A stretch of 64,000 nt of DNA from Candidatus Poribacteria bacterium (GTDB taxonomy: Bacteria; Poribacteria; WGA-4E; WGA-3G), in assembly GCA_958295945.1 (NCBI GenBank), contig OY282386.1, forward strand, positions 4,892,204 to 4,956,203, read 5' to 3'. Positions 11,140 through 61,770 of the stretch are shown piece by piece. Within the stretch, counting starts at the first letter, position 1. The number at the start of each line of letters is the position of its first letter. The notes under the pieces are model-generated. The model ran no database searches and was not told the origin of the DNA. It saw only the letters and a program-made list of their open reading frames with translations. The position numbers were made by a program, and so were the translations under genes.

Positions 11140-11327
11140 TTAATTCTTGTTATCTTTTTCTTTATCAACAGTTTTGATTTCATATTCTTTTAATTCAAGT
11201 GTTTCTTCTTCAAATGAGTTAAACATTTCAATATCTGCTTCTGTGATAACTTTTTCATTTTCTGAACTCTTGGATAATGCCTTCAGCATTATATTTTCAC
11301 TCTGCTTCTTGAACTTAACAATAGACA
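11140..11327 (-). pseudogene. 3' remnant of a third paralogue (copy 3)
   Basis: The last roughly 60 codons (SIVKFKKQSENIML to the lysine-rich end) match the end of copy 2 (GIVKFYQETENIIL onward). Upstream of about 11328 the similarity stops and plus-strand transposase sequence begins. The apparent 111-residue frame (11140-11475) is thus a chimera of antisense transposase and paralogue tail, not a natural start. Confidence 0.65.
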
Positions 11328-11330
11328 TTG

Positions 11331-11548
11331 AACTGACAGCAGCTGAAAAAGCAAGAAACCGGGAAATATCGTCTATCCGTATCCGTGTAGAACATGTGAT
11401 TAGTGGTGTCAAAAGATACCGCATAGTCAAAGACAAGTTGCGCAATTGGAAACAAGGTTTCAGCGATTTAGTCATGAAAATCTGTTGTGGATTACATAAC
11501 TTTCGTCTAAACTTCAGACCTTGGTGTTATGACAAACATTTCGATTAA
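11331..11548 (+). pseudogene. Transposase C-terminal remnant (same family as 60572-61770)
   Basis: The plus-strand reading ISSIRIRVEHVISGVKRYRI and then KLRNWKQGF, CCGLHNFRLNFRPWCY is nearly identical to the end of the transposase at 60572. It keeps the catalytic-glutamate region (RVEH) but has no N-terminal part. It lies antisense to copy 3 and marks the site where that gene was broken. Confidence 0.8.
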
Positions 11549-39088: not shown

Positions 39089-41971
39089 TCATTCATTTTG
39101 GTATTCTGTTAATGGAGGACAACTACACATAAGGTTTCTATCCCCGTGAACTTCGTTTATTCGTGCGACTGCAGGCCAAAATTTAGTTTGGCGTACCCAA
39201 GGTTGTGGGAAAACGGCTTTTTCTCGCGTATATGGATGGTTCCAGTCAGTTTGTGTAACGGATTGGACAGTATGCGGTGCGTTTTTCAGGACATTGTCTT
39301 CTTTATCTGATGTGCCATTTTCTATTTCCACTATCTCCTCGCGAATAGATATGAGTGCAGAACAGAAACGATCTAATTCTGCTTTCGATTCGCTTTCTGT
39401 CGGTTCAATCATCATCGTTCCCAGAACCGGCCAAGACACTGTAGGCGCGTGAAAACCGTAGTCCACAAGTCGTTTAGCGACATCTGTCACATCTATTCCG
39501 GCAGTTTTCTTAAAGTCACGCAAGTCAATAATACACTCATGCGCGACTAATCCGCTCTTACCCGTATATAGAACAGGATAGTGAGATTCCAGTTGTTTGG
39601 CAATATAATTGGCGTTAAGGATTGCAGCTTCTGTAGCAGATTTTAGTCCATCTGAATCCATCATAGCGATATAAGTCCAAGAAATAGGCAAGATACCCGG
39701 ACTTCCCCACGGTGCAGCGGATACAGGACCAATGCTGTTATCACCGCCAACTGAAACAATCGGGTGATTCGGTAAGAAATCGGTGAGGTGTGCTGATACG
39801 CCTATTGGACCCATTCCAGGACCACCACCACCGTGTGGTATACAAAATGTCTTGTGTAAATTAAGATGACACACATCCGCGCCAAGATCGGCAGGACGAC
39901 TTAATCCGACAAGTGCGTTGAGATTCGCACCGTCCATATAAACCTGTCCTCCGTATTCATGAACGATATTGCATATCTCACGAATTTGTTCCTCAAATAC
40001 ACCGTGTGTTGATGGGTATGTCACCATAGCCGCTGCAAGTGTTTCACGATGTTCCTCTGCTTTCTCTTTTAAATCATCAAGGTCAATGTTTCCTTCAGTA
40101 TCACATGCAACGACAACGACTTTCATACCTGCCATCACAGCACTGGCAGGATTAGTGCCGTGTGCAGATGTCGGGATTAAACAGACATTCCGATGTGAAT
40201 CGTTTCGACTTTGGTGGTATTTCCGTATGACCAACAGACCTGCATATTCCCCTTGTGAGCCGGCATTCGGTTGCAATGAGATAGCACTATATCCCGTTAT
40301 CTCTCCCAACCACGTCTCCAACTGCTCAAATAAGATATGGTAACCTTGTGCTTGATCACTCGGCGCAAAGGGATGCAACCCGCCAAATTCTTGCCATGTG
40401 ACAGGCACCATCTCAGTGGTCGCATTGAGTTTCATTGTGCAGGAACCCAGAGGTATCATTGCATTAACAAGTGAGAGGTCTTTGCTTTGAAGTCTGTGGA
40501 TATATCTGAGCATCTCCGTTTCAGAGTGATAACTATTAAATATTGGATGCGTGAGACATGAGGATGTTCGGCACAATTCAGAGGGTATTTCATAAGATTT
40601 ATTTTCCCCATTGCCAGTTGCATGTTCTTTGAATACTTGTATCAAGTCTTCAATATCAGTCTGTGTTGTCGTTTCGTCTAATGATATACCCGCGTGCGCA
40701 GAATCAATTTTGCGGAGATTTATCTGCCTTTTACGAGCAGAAGTAAGTAATTGCTCAGAACCTTTTGTACCAACGTCAACACAAAGCGTATCAAAACAGG
40801 GAAAATCACCTGTATTATAGCCAAGAAATTCTAGTTCAGACCGTAATGTGCAAGTTTGCGTATGGATGTTTTCAGCGATTTCTCTTAATCCTTCGGGGCC
40901 ATGATAAACAGCATACATCCCTGCCATAACAGCCAGCAGAACTTGTGCAGTACATATATTACTTGTGGCTTTTTCACGGCGGATGTGCTGTTCACGTGTT
41001 TGGAGGGCTAATCGTATCGCAGGTTCACCGTTGGTATCATGAGACACACCTGCAATGCGTCCAGGAATGCTGCGTTTGAGTTCATCATGTGTGGAGAGAA
41101 ATGCAGCATGGGGACCGCCATATCCGAGTGGAACGCCAAACCTTTGCGAGTTTCCGATGACGATATCTGCACCGAATTCACCGGGAGGCTTCAAAAGCAT
41201 GAGTGCTAATAGGTCAGTTGCGGCAACAAACAAGCCACCCGCGGCATGCACCTGCTCCGCAAATTGATGATAGTCGTAAATCGCACCGTCTGTGGCAGGA
41301 TATTGCACGATTGCACCTAAGATAGGTGTATCAAAATCCACAGTCCTATGGTCTCCCATTAGCAGTTCAATGCCGAGAGGTTCAGCACGTGTTTGTAAAA
41401 CAGCAATGGTTTGTGGATGGCAGGTTTCTGAAACAAAAAACTTACGACTGATCTCCTGTGGGACATTTGCATAACACATTGTCATCGCTTCAGCAGCTGC
41501 AGTCGCCTCATCCAGCAAGGATGCGTTTGCAATGGGAAGTCCGGTTAAATCAATAACCATAGTTTGGAAGTTAAGTAACGCTTCCAATCGTCCCTGTGAA
41601 ATTTCGGCTTGATATGGGGTGTATTGTGTATACCAACCAGGATTTTCAAGGATGTTCCTTTGTATAACTGGTGGAACGTGGCAGTTATAATACCCCATGC
41701 CTATATAGGAACGGAAGACCTTGTTTTGAGAAGCAAGATGTTTTAGCGCATCAAGTGCTTCGTATTCTGAAAGACCTTGCGAATTTGTGTTCTTTCCACA
41801 AATATCTAAACGCAACGGTGATGACATACGAATGTCTGCTGGCACAACGTCTTCAATGAAATCGTCCATTGAAGCATAGCCGAGTGTGTCCAGCATCTGA
41901 TCTATATCTTCAGAACGAGGGCCGATGTGTCGATTTGAAAAGGATAAGGAAAGGTTTTCTTTATCAAGCAT
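39089..41971 (-). CDS. gcvP: Glycine dehydrogenase (decarboxylating), P-protein
   Basis: About 960 residues from the ATG at 41971, which overlaps the gcvH stop by eight bases; a farther ATG at 42022 would lie deep inside gcvH. It is the full-length fused P-protein, with both PLP-enzyme halves. The PLP lysine is in [19 protein letters not shown], around residue 710-725. It decarboxylates glycine and transfers aminomethyl to lipoyl-GcvH. Confidence 0.95.
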
Positions 41972-42350
41972 GCTCCGCCTCAATATATGCTTGATATTGA
42001 TCGGCATCAAAGAGCGCGTCAAGTTCGCTGGGATCAGTCATCTTGATTTTGAGAAACCAACCATCATCATAAGGTGAATCATTCACTTGTTCGGGAGCAT
42101 CAAGGAGGGATTCGTTTACCTCAATCACTTCGCCACTCACAGGGGAATAGAGGTCAAATGCAGCTTTGACAGATTCTATCACACCCAATTCATTTTTTTG
42201 TGTTAGTTCAGTGCCAACATCTGGCAATTCAACGAAGACAATATCTTGTATTTCGGATTGGGCATAGTCTGTGATGCCGATAGTGGCGATGTCATCCTCT
42301 TGCCTAACCCACTCATGGCTTTCCATATATCTTAACTTTTCTGGAATCAT
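41964..42350 (-). CDS. gcvH: Glycine cleavage system H protein
   Basis: About 128 residues from the ATG at 42350, which is well spaced from AAGGAAA; an upstream GTG at 42365 is the alternative. The lipoylated lysine lies in [20 protein letters not shown] (about K62). It shuttles intermediates among P, T and L proteins. Coupled to gcvP by overlap. Upstream is the MITE-disrupted protease gene. Confidence 0.94.
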
Positions 42351-42461
42351 CAAATTTTCCTTCACGTTTTTTAATAATCATTGAAAATATTACCTTCAAA
42401 TTGCTCAAAAGGCTACGGTTTATATTAGACTTTATTCTGATTCTCACCAATTACGATTATA

Positions 42462-42637
42462 TCATTCTCCAATCTGCACAGCACGTTTGATTTCCAAATC
42501 ATCAAAAGCTTGTCCATTTTTATCTGTAATCCGCAGATAAAATCCCCATCCTTCTTTCTCCTCACACACCTTAACGAGGATACTGTTCTTACCTTTCGTA
42601 AGTGTTACGGGAAAGATATATCTGTCCATTATTGCTT
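42462..42637 (-). pseudogene. Cut-off 3' end of the protease-TPR gene
   Basis: The minus-strand reading AIMDRYIFPVTLTKGKNSIL, then VKVCEEKEGWGFYLRITDKNG and a stop at 42462-42464, is the natural continuation of the C-terminal domain interrupted at 42776. It is separated from the main frame by the MITE. Removing the MITE and one target copy (138 bases) joins the two in frame. Confidence 0.85.
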
Positions 42638-42642
42638 TATGT

Positions 42643-42775
42643 CAGGACTTACGCAGTTTCTCTTAAAGTCCCCTTGATAAGGGGGATTTAGGGGGTTAAA
42701 AAGACCAAAAACACTGAAATATTGCACTATTTAACCCCCCTACCCCCCTTATCAAGGGGGAATGCGTAAGTCCTG
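42643..42775. mobile_element. 133-bp MITE with TATGT target duplication inside a protease gene
   Basis: Ends are CAGGACTTACGCA and its complement TGCGTAAGTCCTG. Further in, CCCCTTGATAAGGGGGATTT and AAATCCCCCTTATC-like segments give a long foldback over nearly the whole element. TATGT lies on both sides (42638-42642, 42776-42780). No coding capacity; it supplies the premature stop of the upstream frame. Confidence 0.9.
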
Positions 42776-44279
42776 TATGTGTTTCTGTATGTGCATAAAC
42801 TTCTACCCCGTTTAGCCAGACTTTTCCTTGATCGTCGCTATCAAAGCGGAATTGTACTTCCCTTTCATCAGGTGAAGTAACGGTTGTCGATGCATAGGCA
42901 ACACGCCAATCAACATCTTTCCCAAACCTGATATTGCCATCCAATTTATCATCTGAACATTTTTGCCAACTCACCTCACCATCTATGCTGTCATATCTTA
43001 CGGTAGTGTCAACATGTGTTGCTTCTTCAGGAATATATGCAGTCTCAAAACCGATTTTATCCATATTATCAAATGGACCGAGGACTATCCATGAGTCTTC
43101 CGTAATTAAACCCGTTTTTTGAATATGTTCGCCTGCTTTGTCAAGCATACCTTTATCACGGTAATACTTGGCGATACTAAGGTTAGTATCTAAATCCAGT
43201 GGTTCAAGTCTAATTGCTTCAGTGAAATCTTCAAATGCTGCTTGATGTTTTTCTAGTTTCAGATTAATATTACCGCGTGCTTTGTATGCTTCACCGTTGT
43301 TGCGGTCAAGACTGATGCTTTTAGAATAATCGTCTTTTGCACCTTTATAGTCTCCAATGTGGTTCTTTGTGCTGCCACGAGCATTGTATGCATGAATATT
43401 CTCTGGATCGAGGTTTATTGCTTGATTATAGTCTTCAATTGCGCCTTTATGGTTACCTACTACATCCTTGGCAACCCCACGATTCAAGAAAAAGCGGTCG
43501 GCGACTGGATTTAACTGAATTGCCCTATCTAAATGTAATATTGCTTCGTTATATTCTTTGGAATCGAATTTAATTCCTGCCAGATTATAGTAATGGTCAG
43601 CACGAATTACGTTTCGCTGGTGCCACTGCTGCAAAGCTTCCGTTTTGGTTTCTGTTAGTAAAGCCTTAAGGGTGTTAGAAGAAATTGCATAACTGTAAGC
43701 CATATAATTCGCGGTTGCCACGCCAACGACATTACCTATGCTGTTTAGAATAGGACCACCACTATTTCCATGAGAAACATCAACTGTCATTCGTAACCAT
43801 TTATTATTCTTCTGAACACTATTTATAACCCCCTCGGTTACTCTGTAATTAGCCGCTGGAAATCCTACTGCATAAATAGACTCGCCGATTTGGACTCTAT
43901 CGCTATTCCCAAGAGGAAGTGGTGTGCCTTCACCTGAAATTTTTAGGATAACAAGGTCATTCTTAATATCAAACGCGGTTACACCTACAATTTTCCAAAC
44001 TTCTTCATTGTCAATTAGTTTAGCGAAATAGAGACCTGGTTGTGATACAACGTGAATGTTGGTAACGATCGTATCTTTGCCTACAAAAAAACCTGTCCCA
44101 ACGCCAAGACCCGAAAAGTTCCCGCCAACTATACGCACCGTAGATGCTTTTGCCTTTTCGGATATTGAGTCAGTTTCCGTTAACTCCTCAGATTTTTCAA
44201 AAGGTTCCTGTGCATATGAGAATGAGAGAAATACCGCCAGAACCAACAAGCAGAATAAAATTTTTGTGTAATGTCTCAT
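42696..44279 (-). CDS. Exported trypsin-like serine protease with TPR repeats, C-terminus disrupted
   Basis: As read, 527 residues: signal peptide (1-23, ending SYAQ), then a trypsin-like fold with the triad H76 (TNIHVV), D108 (NDLVIL) and S173 (GNSGGPIL). About five tetratricopeptide repeats follow (RADHYYNLAGIKFDSKEYN, NLDPENIHAYNARGS and others). A C-terminal jelly-roll-like domain begins with DSWIVLGPFDN and includes VWLNGVEVYAHTET. After that the frame enters the MITE and stops. The ancestral product would have 559 residues. It lies 2 bases after its paralogue, inside the gcv region. Confidence 0.85.
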   Translation of the reverse strand: MRHYTKILFCLLVLAVFLSFSYAQEPFEKSEELTETDSISEKAKASTVRIVGGNFSGLGVGTGFFVGKDTIVTNIHVVSQPGLYFAKLIDNEEVWKIVGVTAFDIKNDLVILKISGEGTPLPLGNSDRVQIGESIYAVGFPAANYRVTEGVINSVQKNNKWLRMTVDVSHGNSGGPILNSIGNVVGVATANYMAYSYAISSNTLKALLTETKTEALQQWHQRNVIRADHYYNLAGIKFDSKEYNEAILHLDRAIQLNPVADRFFLNRGVAKDVVGNHKGAIEDYNQAINLDPENIHAYNARGSTKNHIGDYKGAKDDYSKSISLDRNNGEAYKARGNINLKLEKHQAAFEDFTEAIRLEPLDLDTNLSIAKYYRDKGMLDKAGEHIQKTGLITEDSWIVLGPFDNMDKIGFETAYIPEEATHVDTTVRYDSIDGEVSWQKCSDDKLDGNIRFGKDVDWRVAYASTTVTSPDEREVQFRFDSDDQGKVWLNGVEVYAHTETHTGLTHSPLIRGVGGLNSAIFQCFWSF

Positions 44280-44281
44280 TT

Positions 44282-46234
44282 TTATTTTTTTGCCTCCGGG
44301 TTTAGTTCTTTCGCCTTTTCAAAATCAATTTTCGCTGCTTCATGTTGTCCAAGTGCTTCCTTTGCTTTCCCACGATTGTGATAGGCTTCAGCATATTTTG
44401 GGTTAAGTTCAATGGCTTTATCGTAGTCAGCGATCGCACCGTCATAATCCTTTAGATCAGCCTTTGCAAGGCCGCGGCCTATGTATGCGTTAGTATGTTC
44501 AGGTTTTAGCTTAATTGCATGATTGTAATCTGCAATTGCACCATCAAAATCTTTGGACATGCGTTTCGCATTACCACGATCTATATAAGCAAAGTAAGCG
44601 TAAGAAATGTCTTCAAGATTCAGTTCAATTGCTTGTGTATAATCCTCTATAGCACCAGTATAGTCCTCAAGTTCTACTTTTACATGCCCGCGAAGCCTGT
44701 AGGAATAAGGTTCTTTGGGTTTTAGTTTTATTGCTTGAGTATAGTCTTCAATCGCGGCAGCATACTCTCTAAGTTTACGTTTTGCTGAACCACGATTGTT
44801 GTATCCGTAAGTATCATTAGGTTGAAGCTTAATTGCTTCGGTAAAATCTTCAATCGCTCCAGTGCTATTACCACTTTCCAACTTTGCACGTCCACGACTA
44901 TTTAAAATGAAGTAAGAGTCATCAGGCTTCAGTTTTAGTGCCTGATTATAGTCTTCAATTGCCCCGATGAAATCTTTGAGTTTAAGTCTTGCCTGCGCGC
45001 GTTGAATATAGATGGTTCCATCTTGAGGATTGTGCTTAATGGCTTGTGTATAGTCTTCAATTGCGCCAGTATAGTCTCCGCTCTGAGTCTTCGTCCAAGC
45101 GCGTGCATTATAGGCATTAGCATCATCAGGTTTTAGTTTGAGGACTTGTGTAAAATCTTCTATTGCTCCCGCATAATCCCCTTTCGCTGACTTTTCATGA
45201 CCGCGTTCTCTGTAATTGCTAACATCTTCAGAAGATCGTTCTGATTCAATAAATGTTCGTGTTATCGTTGTAACGACTGTACCATCCTTACGTGACTGCA
45301 CCTCAAGTGTCTTTCCCTCAAGTATCTTTTTAGTCTCATCAAGTTTTTTTTGAATTTCAAGATCGGTCGGGTTTAGTTTCAATAGATGACTATAGTCATC
45401 TATTGCCCCTTTATAATCTCCAAGTGTACTTTTTGCGTCTCCACGTATCTTATAGATTTTCAGATCATCAGGATTCAGTTCAATTGCTTGATTGAAATCT
45501 TTTATTGCTTTTTCAACGTTCCCATCATAATATTTCTGCCATCCTCGCATGTGATAGAAATAAGAACGTACATTTTTTCGCTTCCGCCACTTTCCCAGAG
45601 GTTCCGTAGAAATAGAATCCTCTATCAATGCCTTGATGACACTGGAAGGTCTCGCGTCGTAACCGTGTCCAACATGAATACCAATGATTTCACCTTTGCT
45701 GTTTAACATTGGACTACCACTGTTTCCCGGATACGCTTCAACTGTCGTCTTCAACCATTTATCACTCTTGCGTATATCTTTGACAACTCCGTCTACAACC
45801 TTGAATTCTCCTAATTTAGGGTAGCCTGCCAGGAAGACGGTCTCTCCGATCTGAAGTGTATCAATGTCAGCCAATGGTAGTGGGACACCTTCACCTTTTA
45901 TCTTCAGGATAGCAATGTCACTCTTGATATCAAATGCCATAACACCTTCTACTAACCAGATTGTTTCTTTGTGATTTAATTTAGCAGTAATAGGTCCGAT
46001 TGTACATCCTGCTGCAACGTGAAAATTTGTTGCTATCATATCCGGCGCCACAAAGAATCCCGAACCACCACCGGGTAACCCGACTATGCGTACAGTAGAT
46101 TCTATTGCCATTTCCGATATTTTGTCAGTTTCTGTTGACTTTTCTGTATTTTCGGCAGTTTCCTGTGCATAAGAAAGTGACAGAAATAACCCCAGAACCA
46201 AGAAGCACAATAAAATATTTGTGTAACGTTTCAT
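44282..46234 (-). CDS. Exported trypsin-like serine protease with a long TPR array
   Basis: The 650-residue protein starts with a signal peptide (1-23) nearly identical to that of the next gene. The protease triad is H72 (TNFHVA), D106 (SDIAIL) and S172 (GNSGSPML). From about residue 225 on there are roughly ten TPR units, each containing DYTGAIEDYTQAI-like segments spaced 34-36 residues apart. The region resembles HtrA-like proteases whose TPRs bind partners, without a PDZ domain. Substrate unknown. It lies between gcvT and gcvH, with no known link to glycine cleavage. Confidence 0.87.
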   Translation of the reverse strand: MKRYTNILLCFLVLGLFLSLSYAQETAENTEKSTETDKISEMAIESTVRIVGLPGGGSGFFVAPDMIATNFHVAAGCTIGPITAKLNHKETIWLVEGVMAFDIKSDIAILKIKGEGVPLPLADIDTLQIGETVFLAGYPKLGEFKVVDGVVKDIRKSDKWLKTTVEAYPGNSGSPMLNSKGEIIGIHVGHGYDARPSSVIKALIEDSISTEPLGKWRKRKNVRSYFYHMRGWQKYYDGNVEKAIKDFNQAIELNPDDLKIYKIRGDAKSTLGDYKGAIDDYSHLLKLNPTDLEIQKKLDETKKILEGKTLEVQSRKDGTVVTTITRTFIESERSSEDVSNYRERGHEKSAKGDYAGAIEDFTQVLKLKPDDANAYNARAWTKTQSGDYTGAIEDYTQAIKHNPQDGTIYIQRAQARLKLKDFIGAIEDYNQALKLKPDDSYFILNSRGRAKLESGNSTGAIEDFTEAIKLQPNDTYGYNNRGSAKRKLREYAAAIEDYTQAIKLKPKEPYSYRLRGHVKVELEDYTGAIEDYTQAIELNLEDISYAYFAYIDRGNAKRMSKDFDGAIADYNHAIKLKPEHTNAYIGRGLAKADLKDYDGAIADYDKAIELNPKYAEAYHNRGKAKEALGQHEAAKIDFEKAKELNPEAKK

Positions 46235-46263: not shown

Positions 46264-47334
46264 CTAAATAAAAGGCACCTTCACGATTTTCGCGGTGTGC
46301 AATTTACCTCGGATGTCGATTTCAATCGTTTTCTTTGTTTTTATAGATATAGACGCAAAACCGATATTACATTTCAAACTTGGCGACGGTGCTCCACTCG
46401 TCACCTTACCAATAGAACGACCATTCTTATAGACTTCATACCCACAGCGTGCAACAGCGCGGTCCAGTCCCTGAAATCCTACTAATTTCTTACTCTGCTC
46501 ACCATTTTCCTTTTGTGCCTGAAGAACGTCCTTACCAATAAAATCTCCTTTGTCTAACTTAACAAAACGTCCAAGTCCTGCCTCAAAAGGTGTTGTGTCG
46601 TCGTCCATATCCATGCCGTAGAGACGGAGTCCTGCTTCAAGTCTTAAGGTGTCGCGCGCACCAAGTCCAACTGGCAATCCTCCCGCTTCTATCACAGCAG
46701 GATAAAGAGCATTCCATAAATCTTCCGCACTGTTGGCATTAACATATAACTCAATCCCTATCTCCCCTGTATATCCAGTACGTGAAATCGCAGTGCGAAT
46801 ACCTGCAACCTCACCAACGACAAACCGAAAAAACGATATTTCAGAAACATCATGATCAGGAACAAAAGGATTTAATATTTCAATTGACTTTGGACCTTGA
46901 AGTGCGATAAGAGTTGTGTTTTCGCTGTCGTCAGTGATTTTTGAGTCTGTGTTGTTTTGTGCTTTAACCCATGCAAGATCTTTTTTAATATTAGCAGCAT
47001 TGACAACAAGTGTGTAGTCATTTTCAGCATGTCGGTAGACAAGGATGTCATCAACTATACCCCCACTCTCATTGCAAAGTAGTGTATATAGCACCTGTCC
47101 ATCAACTAACCGACTTACATCGTTTGTGCAAAGTTTTTGAACTAAGTCGTCTGCCCCTCCGCCTTTAACATCCAATTCTCCCATGTGTGCCAGATCAAAC
47201 AAACCGGCAGTAGAACGAACAGCGAGATGTTCCTTGACAATGCTGCTATATTGTAGCGGCATCTCCCACCCACCAAATTCGGTGAATTTAGCGTGCAGTG
47301 ATTTATGAATTTCGTATAGGGGTGTTCTTTTCAT
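46264..47334 (-). CDS. gcvT: Glycine cleavage system T protein (aminomethyltransferase)
   Basis: The 356-residue protein moves the methylene group from lipoyl-GcvH to tetrahydrofolate and releases ammonia. Typical features are EFGGWEMPLQYSSIVKEHLA at the start, DLAHMGELDVKG, SRTGYTGEIGIELYV and ARDTLRLEAGLRLYG. GGAGAG precedes the ATG. Upstream is the PIN gene and downstream the protease pair, so the gcv genes are not contiguous. Confidence 0.95.
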   Translation of the reverse strand: MKRTPLYEIHKSLHAKFTEFGGWEMPLQYSSIVKEHLAVRSTAGLFDLAHMGELDVKGGGADDLVQKLCTNDVSRLVDGQVLYTLLCNESGGIVDDILVYRHAENDYTLVVNAANIKKDLAWVKAQNNTDSKITDDSENTTLIALQGPKSIEILNPFVPDHDVSEISFFRFVVGEVAGIRTAISRTGYTGEIGIELYVNANSAEDLWNALYPAVIEAGGLPVGLGARDTLRLEAGLRLYGMDMDDDTTPFEAGLGRFVKLDKGDFIGKDVLQAQKENGEQSKKLVGFQGLDRAVARCGYEVYKNGRSIGKVTSGAPSPSLKCNIGFASISIKTKKTIEIDIRGKLHTAKIVKVPFI

Positions 47335-60571: not shown

Positions 60572-61770
60572 TTAAATAGTAGGAGTTTCATAACACCAGG
60601 GTCTGAAGTTTAGTCGAAAATTGTGTAAACCACAACAAGTTTCCATAACTAAGTCACAAAACCCTTTCTTCCAATTTCTGAGTTTATCTTTGACAATACG
60701 GTATCTTTTGACACCACTAATGGCATGTTCAACACGTATGCGTATAGACGCTATCTTTCTATTGATTTCTTTTTCTTTTTCTCTCAGTTCTCCACCTTTC
60801 GGTTTTTTCTTCGGTTGAACGATGTGGACATCAGGAAGAGTGAACCCCTGAAAACCGGTATCTTGGGACAAGGTGCTTCCCGGGGGCACACAATAGCCAA
60901 CCTGATCAGCTATGTATTTGTCATGGTGTCTTCCTTCAAAAGAGGGTGTCAATAGGACGACTTTGCAGCTTTCATTGATAATCAGATTATTTTTTACTGT
61001 ATGACATTTCTTTTTACCGCTATAATATGCCTTTTGAGTTTCTGGGTCTCTTGGACGTCGTATTCGCCGTTCTATACCATCATGAAAAAAAAATATTCTT
61101 TATCTTGACTTTGACTTGATACCTCACAAGTATCACACGTAGATGTGGGAACTGTTTCCCGAGATGGCAGCTCTCCAAGTTCTGCTAATGCGGTGTTCAA
61201 TATCGGTAAAAGCAAGTGAATCCATTTATTCGCAAGAGGTTGAGCCATACCAAAGAGCGTGCCGAATAGAACCTGTTTCGGAGCTTCATGAAGATAAATT
61301 AATATAAATAGCAACATATCTTCATGTGAAGCAAAACAACTATTTTTGTAGGGTTTATATCTCCGTTTTATGCGCGGTTTTCCATCAAGGGTCCGTGTTT
61401 CCATATAAGCTAAAAAACATTTAGAAAAATGAGGTAATAGTTTTGTAAACTCTTCTAAAGTATATCCAGTGAGAGATAGAAGCGTCCCAGCTTTGTCCTT
61501 AATATCTTCAAAAACGATCATGAGAAAACCTCCATTTATAAGATTGTAATTAGAATAACAGAGGTTAACTAAACTTGCAACTAAATCATTATAATGTCTT
61601 TTATACATGAGCGGACGAAAACCCTCAAAGACACGAGACTCTGCGTCTGACAATGATATACCCGGTTCAAAAAAAATATCTTGAGCCATTGCACTTATTG
61701 CCTCTACAAAACTTTCACACGCTTCTTGATTCTCTTTGATTTCACAACGATCTAATGTTATACTAATCAT
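60572..61770 (-). CDS. IS5-type (DDE_Tnp_4) transposase in two frames joined at a U-rich slippery site
   Basis: Frame 1 (61770-61072) has a helix-turn-helix DDE-superfamily N-terminus. Near 61080-61088 the coding strand runs TAT TTT TTT TTC, and frame 1 ends soon after. The -1 frame continues HDGIERRIRRPRD, YYSGKKKCHTVKNN, LSQDTGFQGF and RVEHAISGVKRYRI, so all three DDE residues lie after the shift. The U-UUU-UUC heptamer is in the correct phase for -1 frameshifting; transcript slippage would also work. The joined product has about 399 residues. A fragment of the same family is at 11331-11548. Confidence 0.75.

Follow-up and report, generated by a model that had tools for sequence, protein, structure and literature searches.

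Bacterial MITEs are short, non-coding elements that carry inverted repeats, are flanked by target duplications, occur in near-identical copies and have an autonomous partner with matching ends; the interruption of a gene by a MITE whose partner can be identified is a well-known kind of event. All of these traits are shared by the 133-bp element described here. Its family, on the other hand, was found only in Candidatus Poribacteria among the matches listed from a search of a public genome collection with an end-plus-core pattern, and none of the papers searched described it, nor did a search for publications on poribacterial MITEs find any. In the IS701 family of insertion sequences (ISs), ISPlag1 of Planktothrix agardhii is described as an element that inactivates genes by insertion in Planktothrix (PMC9366434). 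The product of the interrupted gene has a Trypsin_2 domain (83 bits against a Pfam cut-off of 27.6) and TPRs in common with HtrA/DegP-type and trypsin-like proteases with TPRs, and its His, Asp and Ser motifs (TNIHVV, DIKNDL and GNSGGP) can be recognized by eye in the ORF. However, it differs from these proteases in having an unnamed, probably jelly-roll-like C-terminal domain, and all named HtrA-type NCBIfam models scored far below their cut-offs on this protein.

This C-terminal domain (~165 residues, lying at about residues 361-556 of the joined protein) was not matched above cut-off by any Pfam model. Weak matches of Glyco_hydro_2_N to 11 of 12 domain members (best E 3.9e-05), as well as a PDB profile match to beta-glucuronidase that is likewise weak (E 0.014), suggest a fold that is probably a jelly-roll, similar to the sugar-binding domain of GH2 enzymes. 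An earlier note on this DNA had called it a common C-terminal domain, and it does recur in many other proteins of the genus and the family, within open frames that reach ~3600 codons in length.

The features of the locus are collected in the table; positions refer to the window, that is, the whole stretch of 64,000 nucleotides analysed, which belongs to a source genome (G000) of 5.34 Mb in a single contig. The earlier note had described the element as an inverted-repeat unit flanked by TATGT, and the duplication is indeed perfect on both sides. Its terminal repeats match at 13 of 13 positions, with CAGGACTTACGCA at both ends in inverted orientation; the whole unit folds into one long hairpin of -75.8 kcal/mol (z = -11.5, with 0 of 200 shuffles as good) and has no coding capacity, there being stops in all six frames. 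Being short, bounded by inverted repeats and a target duplication, present in many copies and accompanied by a partner with matching ends, this element is a MITE.

Features of the interrupted protease/TPR gene and its surroundings (positions in the window)
Feature	Position	Strand	Remarks
MITE, 133 bp	42643..42775	.	13-bp perfect terminal inverted repeats CAGGACTTACGCA, internal hairpin
Target site duplication TATGT, first copy	42638..42642	+	
Target site duplication TATGT, second copy	42776..42780	+	
Interrupted trypsin-like protease/TPR gene	44279 to 42462	-	
5' part of interrupted gene	42776..44279	-	signal-peptide-like start, trypsin-like protease, TPRs, most of C-terminal domain
Present-day 527-aa ORF	42696..44279	-	stop TAA 42696-42698; MITE-encoded last residues GLTHSPLIRGVGGLNSAIFQCFWSF
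Severed 3' end of gene	42462..42642	-	last ~55 codons, original stop TGA 42462-42464, frame open
Paralogous trypsin-like/TPR gene, neighbour	44282..46234	-	
gcvT	46264..47334	-	upstream end of conserved neighbourhood
gcvH	41964..42365	-	directly downstream of interrupted gene
gcvP	39089..42022	-	

When the flanks are joined without the element and one copy of TATGT, they give the in-frame gene of 1680 nt (559 residues and a stop) that the earlier note had rebuilt, with VEVYAHTETH running directly into KAIMDRYIFPVTL. The arithmetic offered there (1818 - 138) is right in its figures but weak as evidence, the inserted length being a multiple of three. The element and the duplicated target add 133 + 5 = 138 bp, or 46 codons, so that no frameshift arises and the reading frame is unaltered; the gene is broken instead by in-frame stops that block read-through, of which there are three (TAA 42696-42698, TAA 42663-42665 and TGA 42642-42644). 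The present ORF retains the trypsin-like protease domain and the TPRs, while the ~55 C-terminal residues are missing and a short element-encoded tail stands in their place. The missing part includes a strongly conserved stretch of the C-terminal domain, LxxGxNSILVKVCEExxGWGFYLRITD, and we infer that the truncated protein has lost the function of this domain.

When the joined protein was searched against 60 related genomes, full-length orthologues without a stop were recovered in G001 (78% protein identity), G010 (77%), G015 (73%) and G006 (73%), and another orthologue, truncated by the end of its contig, in G012. The predicted empty site aligned without gaps to the DNA of four same-genus orthologues (423-426 nt, 88-92% identity), and the predicted junction ETHKAI is present. 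The earlier note had held that orthologues stopping inside the element, or sites lacking the junction, would speak against an insertion; all four orthologues read through. G001 retains the gene order gcvT, paralogue, protease/TPR gene, gcvH and gcvP, and G015 shows the same order except that the paralogue upstream is present twice. The paralogue of G006 comes after the protease/TPR gene, still within the gcvT ... gcvH-gcvP neighbourhood, and in G010 gcvT adjoins the protease/TPR gene on a short contig that ends soon after it. The 13-bp end is absent from the three longer neighbourhoods (G001, G006 and G015). Because the orthologues are empty and these neighbourhoods lack the end, comparison of the sequences indicates that the insertion is derived in the G000 lineage. 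A codon comparison (dN/dS) of the 55-codon tail involves too few codons to show relaxed selection.

It might be argued that the interruption is ancestral and that the element was precisely excised in the relatives, which would leave an identical empty site, so that alignment alone cannot separate the two readings. Yet four clearly diverged genomes are all empty and bear no footprint, several separate precise excisions would be needed, and the element, which does not differ from six other copies, is therefore young; such a history appears highly improbable. A derived insertion that is 'fairly recent', as the earlier note put it, agrees with this identity, with the perfect duplication and with the undamaged downstream frame. 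Nor do we give much credence to a repeat misplaced into the gene by the assembly, or to a minority variant of the population. The repeat is multi-copy and the genome appears to be a metagenome-type assembly of an uncultured organism, but misassembly does not make a perfect site-specific target duplication, and here both flanks match those of the orthologues, which makes this explanation extremely unlikely.

The wider search of the genome that the earlier note had proposed yielded seven copies of the whole 133-bp unit at 100% identity and further copies at 94-99%. The 13-mer end occurs 66 times in the 5.34 Mb of G000 (0 times for the reversed control), and in 17 MITE copies both exact ends lie no more than 200 bp apart. 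Target duplications are 5 bp long in 14 of the 16 full copies checked, the other two having 6 and 7 bp. Among the checked copies, the one in the protease/TPR gene is alone in disrupting an ORF longer than 300 residues; shorter ORFs (157-287 residues) are touched by four others, in most cases at the ORF edge. Congeners of G000 also carry the MITE in many copies, and most of the genomes in this genus contain the family; G009 and G010 gave neither MITE nor transposase matches, and no copy was found in the viral contigs searched. It could also be proposed that the element has been domesticated, either as a C-terminal tail or as a regulatory hairpin under selection, for which one could cite the short new tail and the highly stable hairpin that lies a little upstream of gcvH-gcvP. 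However, the element occupies the protease site in one genome only, its siblings lie mostly outside long ORFs and the tail is a mere translation of the MITE, and we consider domestication very unlikely.

G000 also harbours a 1090-bp IS. Its 20 complete copies share at least 99% identity, and 12 of these have the very same sequence; a 21st is cut by the end of the contig, and there are also remnants that are diverged or incomplete. The ends of the IS are CAGGACTTACGCA (13/13) and CAGAACTTACGCA (12/13), the target duplications are mostly 5 bp and sometimes 6 bp, and the 346-aa transposase belongs to the IS701 family (NF049921, 376 bits against a cut-off of 250). The MITE and this IS have the terminal 13 bp in common but not the internal sequence. 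In some MITE-rich relatives, the transposase is present as fragments only; multi-copy ISs are often lost from short-read MAGs. ISPlag1 has 13-bp ends identical to CAGGACTTACGCA and a transposase ~54% identical to the poribacterial one. It is, however, 1306 bp long, whereas the 1090-bp poribacterial IS comes from another phylum and has a right end with one mismatch, and the element inside the protease gene is a 133-bp non-autonomous unit rather than the IS itself. A 5-bp duplication, TTCAA, flanks one copy of ISPlag1, two other copies having no clear duplication, and an element from Nostoc combines identical 13-bp ends with the 5-bp duplication TGGGC.

On the basis of what is observed, namely the element with its duplication, the exact empty site, the sibling copies and an IS that matches in ends and duplication length, we are highly confident that the MITE transposed into the TATGT of the protease/TPR gene. 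The IS701-type transposase of the 1090-bp IS was probably the enzyme that, working in trans, acted upon the MITE ends; insertion at TATGT would have left the 5-bp target duplication.

The IS copies also bear on the structure of the chromosome and of its assembly. Two copies in opposite orientation, G000:C1:806318-807407 (L061) and G000:C1:1169036-1170125 (L059), have flanks ACCAT/CTCCT and CTCCT/ACCAT, respectively; such swapped flanks are as expected after recombination between both copies that inverted the ~0.36 Mb between them. The end of the contig (G000:C1 5336233-5337261) lies inside an IS copy and the contig start is not its continuation; the assembly is therefore a single contig that may not be closed.

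Identity of the 13-bp ends across phyla is a feature of the ISPlag1-like group. The core of the MITE hairpin (~42662-42698, AAGTCCCCTTGATAAGGGGGATTTAGGGGG) resembles sequences on five cyanobacterial plasmids (L217-L221; 89-94% identity over 30-37 nt), which are ruled out as MITE copies, the 13-bp ends being absent near the match. The identical ends and the core likeness suggest exchange between phyla, in which case the MITE and its IS701/ISPlag1-like mover would form a mobile system common to Poribacteria and cyanobacteria, with the core hairpin present in a second MITE family as well; we regard this broader proposal as rather doubtful. A second MITE-like family (L020-L028, for example G000:C1:1634418-1634583) has ends TAACGTGAGTTTGATAA, with 38 exact ends against 0 in controls. 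It encloses a degraded copy of the first MITE, with CAGGACGGACGCA / GACTTCCACATTG as the ends of that copy, and the two have apparently been dispersed together as a composite. Elsewhere in the window, two ORFs (11147-11548 and 60572-60952) with the common segment ISSIRIRVEH.ISGVKRYRIVKDKLRNWK look like remnants of another, putative DDE transposase.

For annotation, the 527-aa protein of G000 is to be read as truncated, with a tail that consists of element sequence. The event is ordinary gene damage by mobile DNA, yet it is clear and well documented: a clean, empty-site-proven case in which a MITE has disrupted a chromosomal gene of an uncultured phylum, with the likely transposase named. No excess of promoters or terminators was found near the insertion site. 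Translation now ends ~330 nt short of gcvH, and a hairpin of great stability is added to the transcript; for these reasons the insertion, which sits in the glycine-cleavage gene cluster, may have a polar effect, lowering the expression of gcvH-gcvP downstream.
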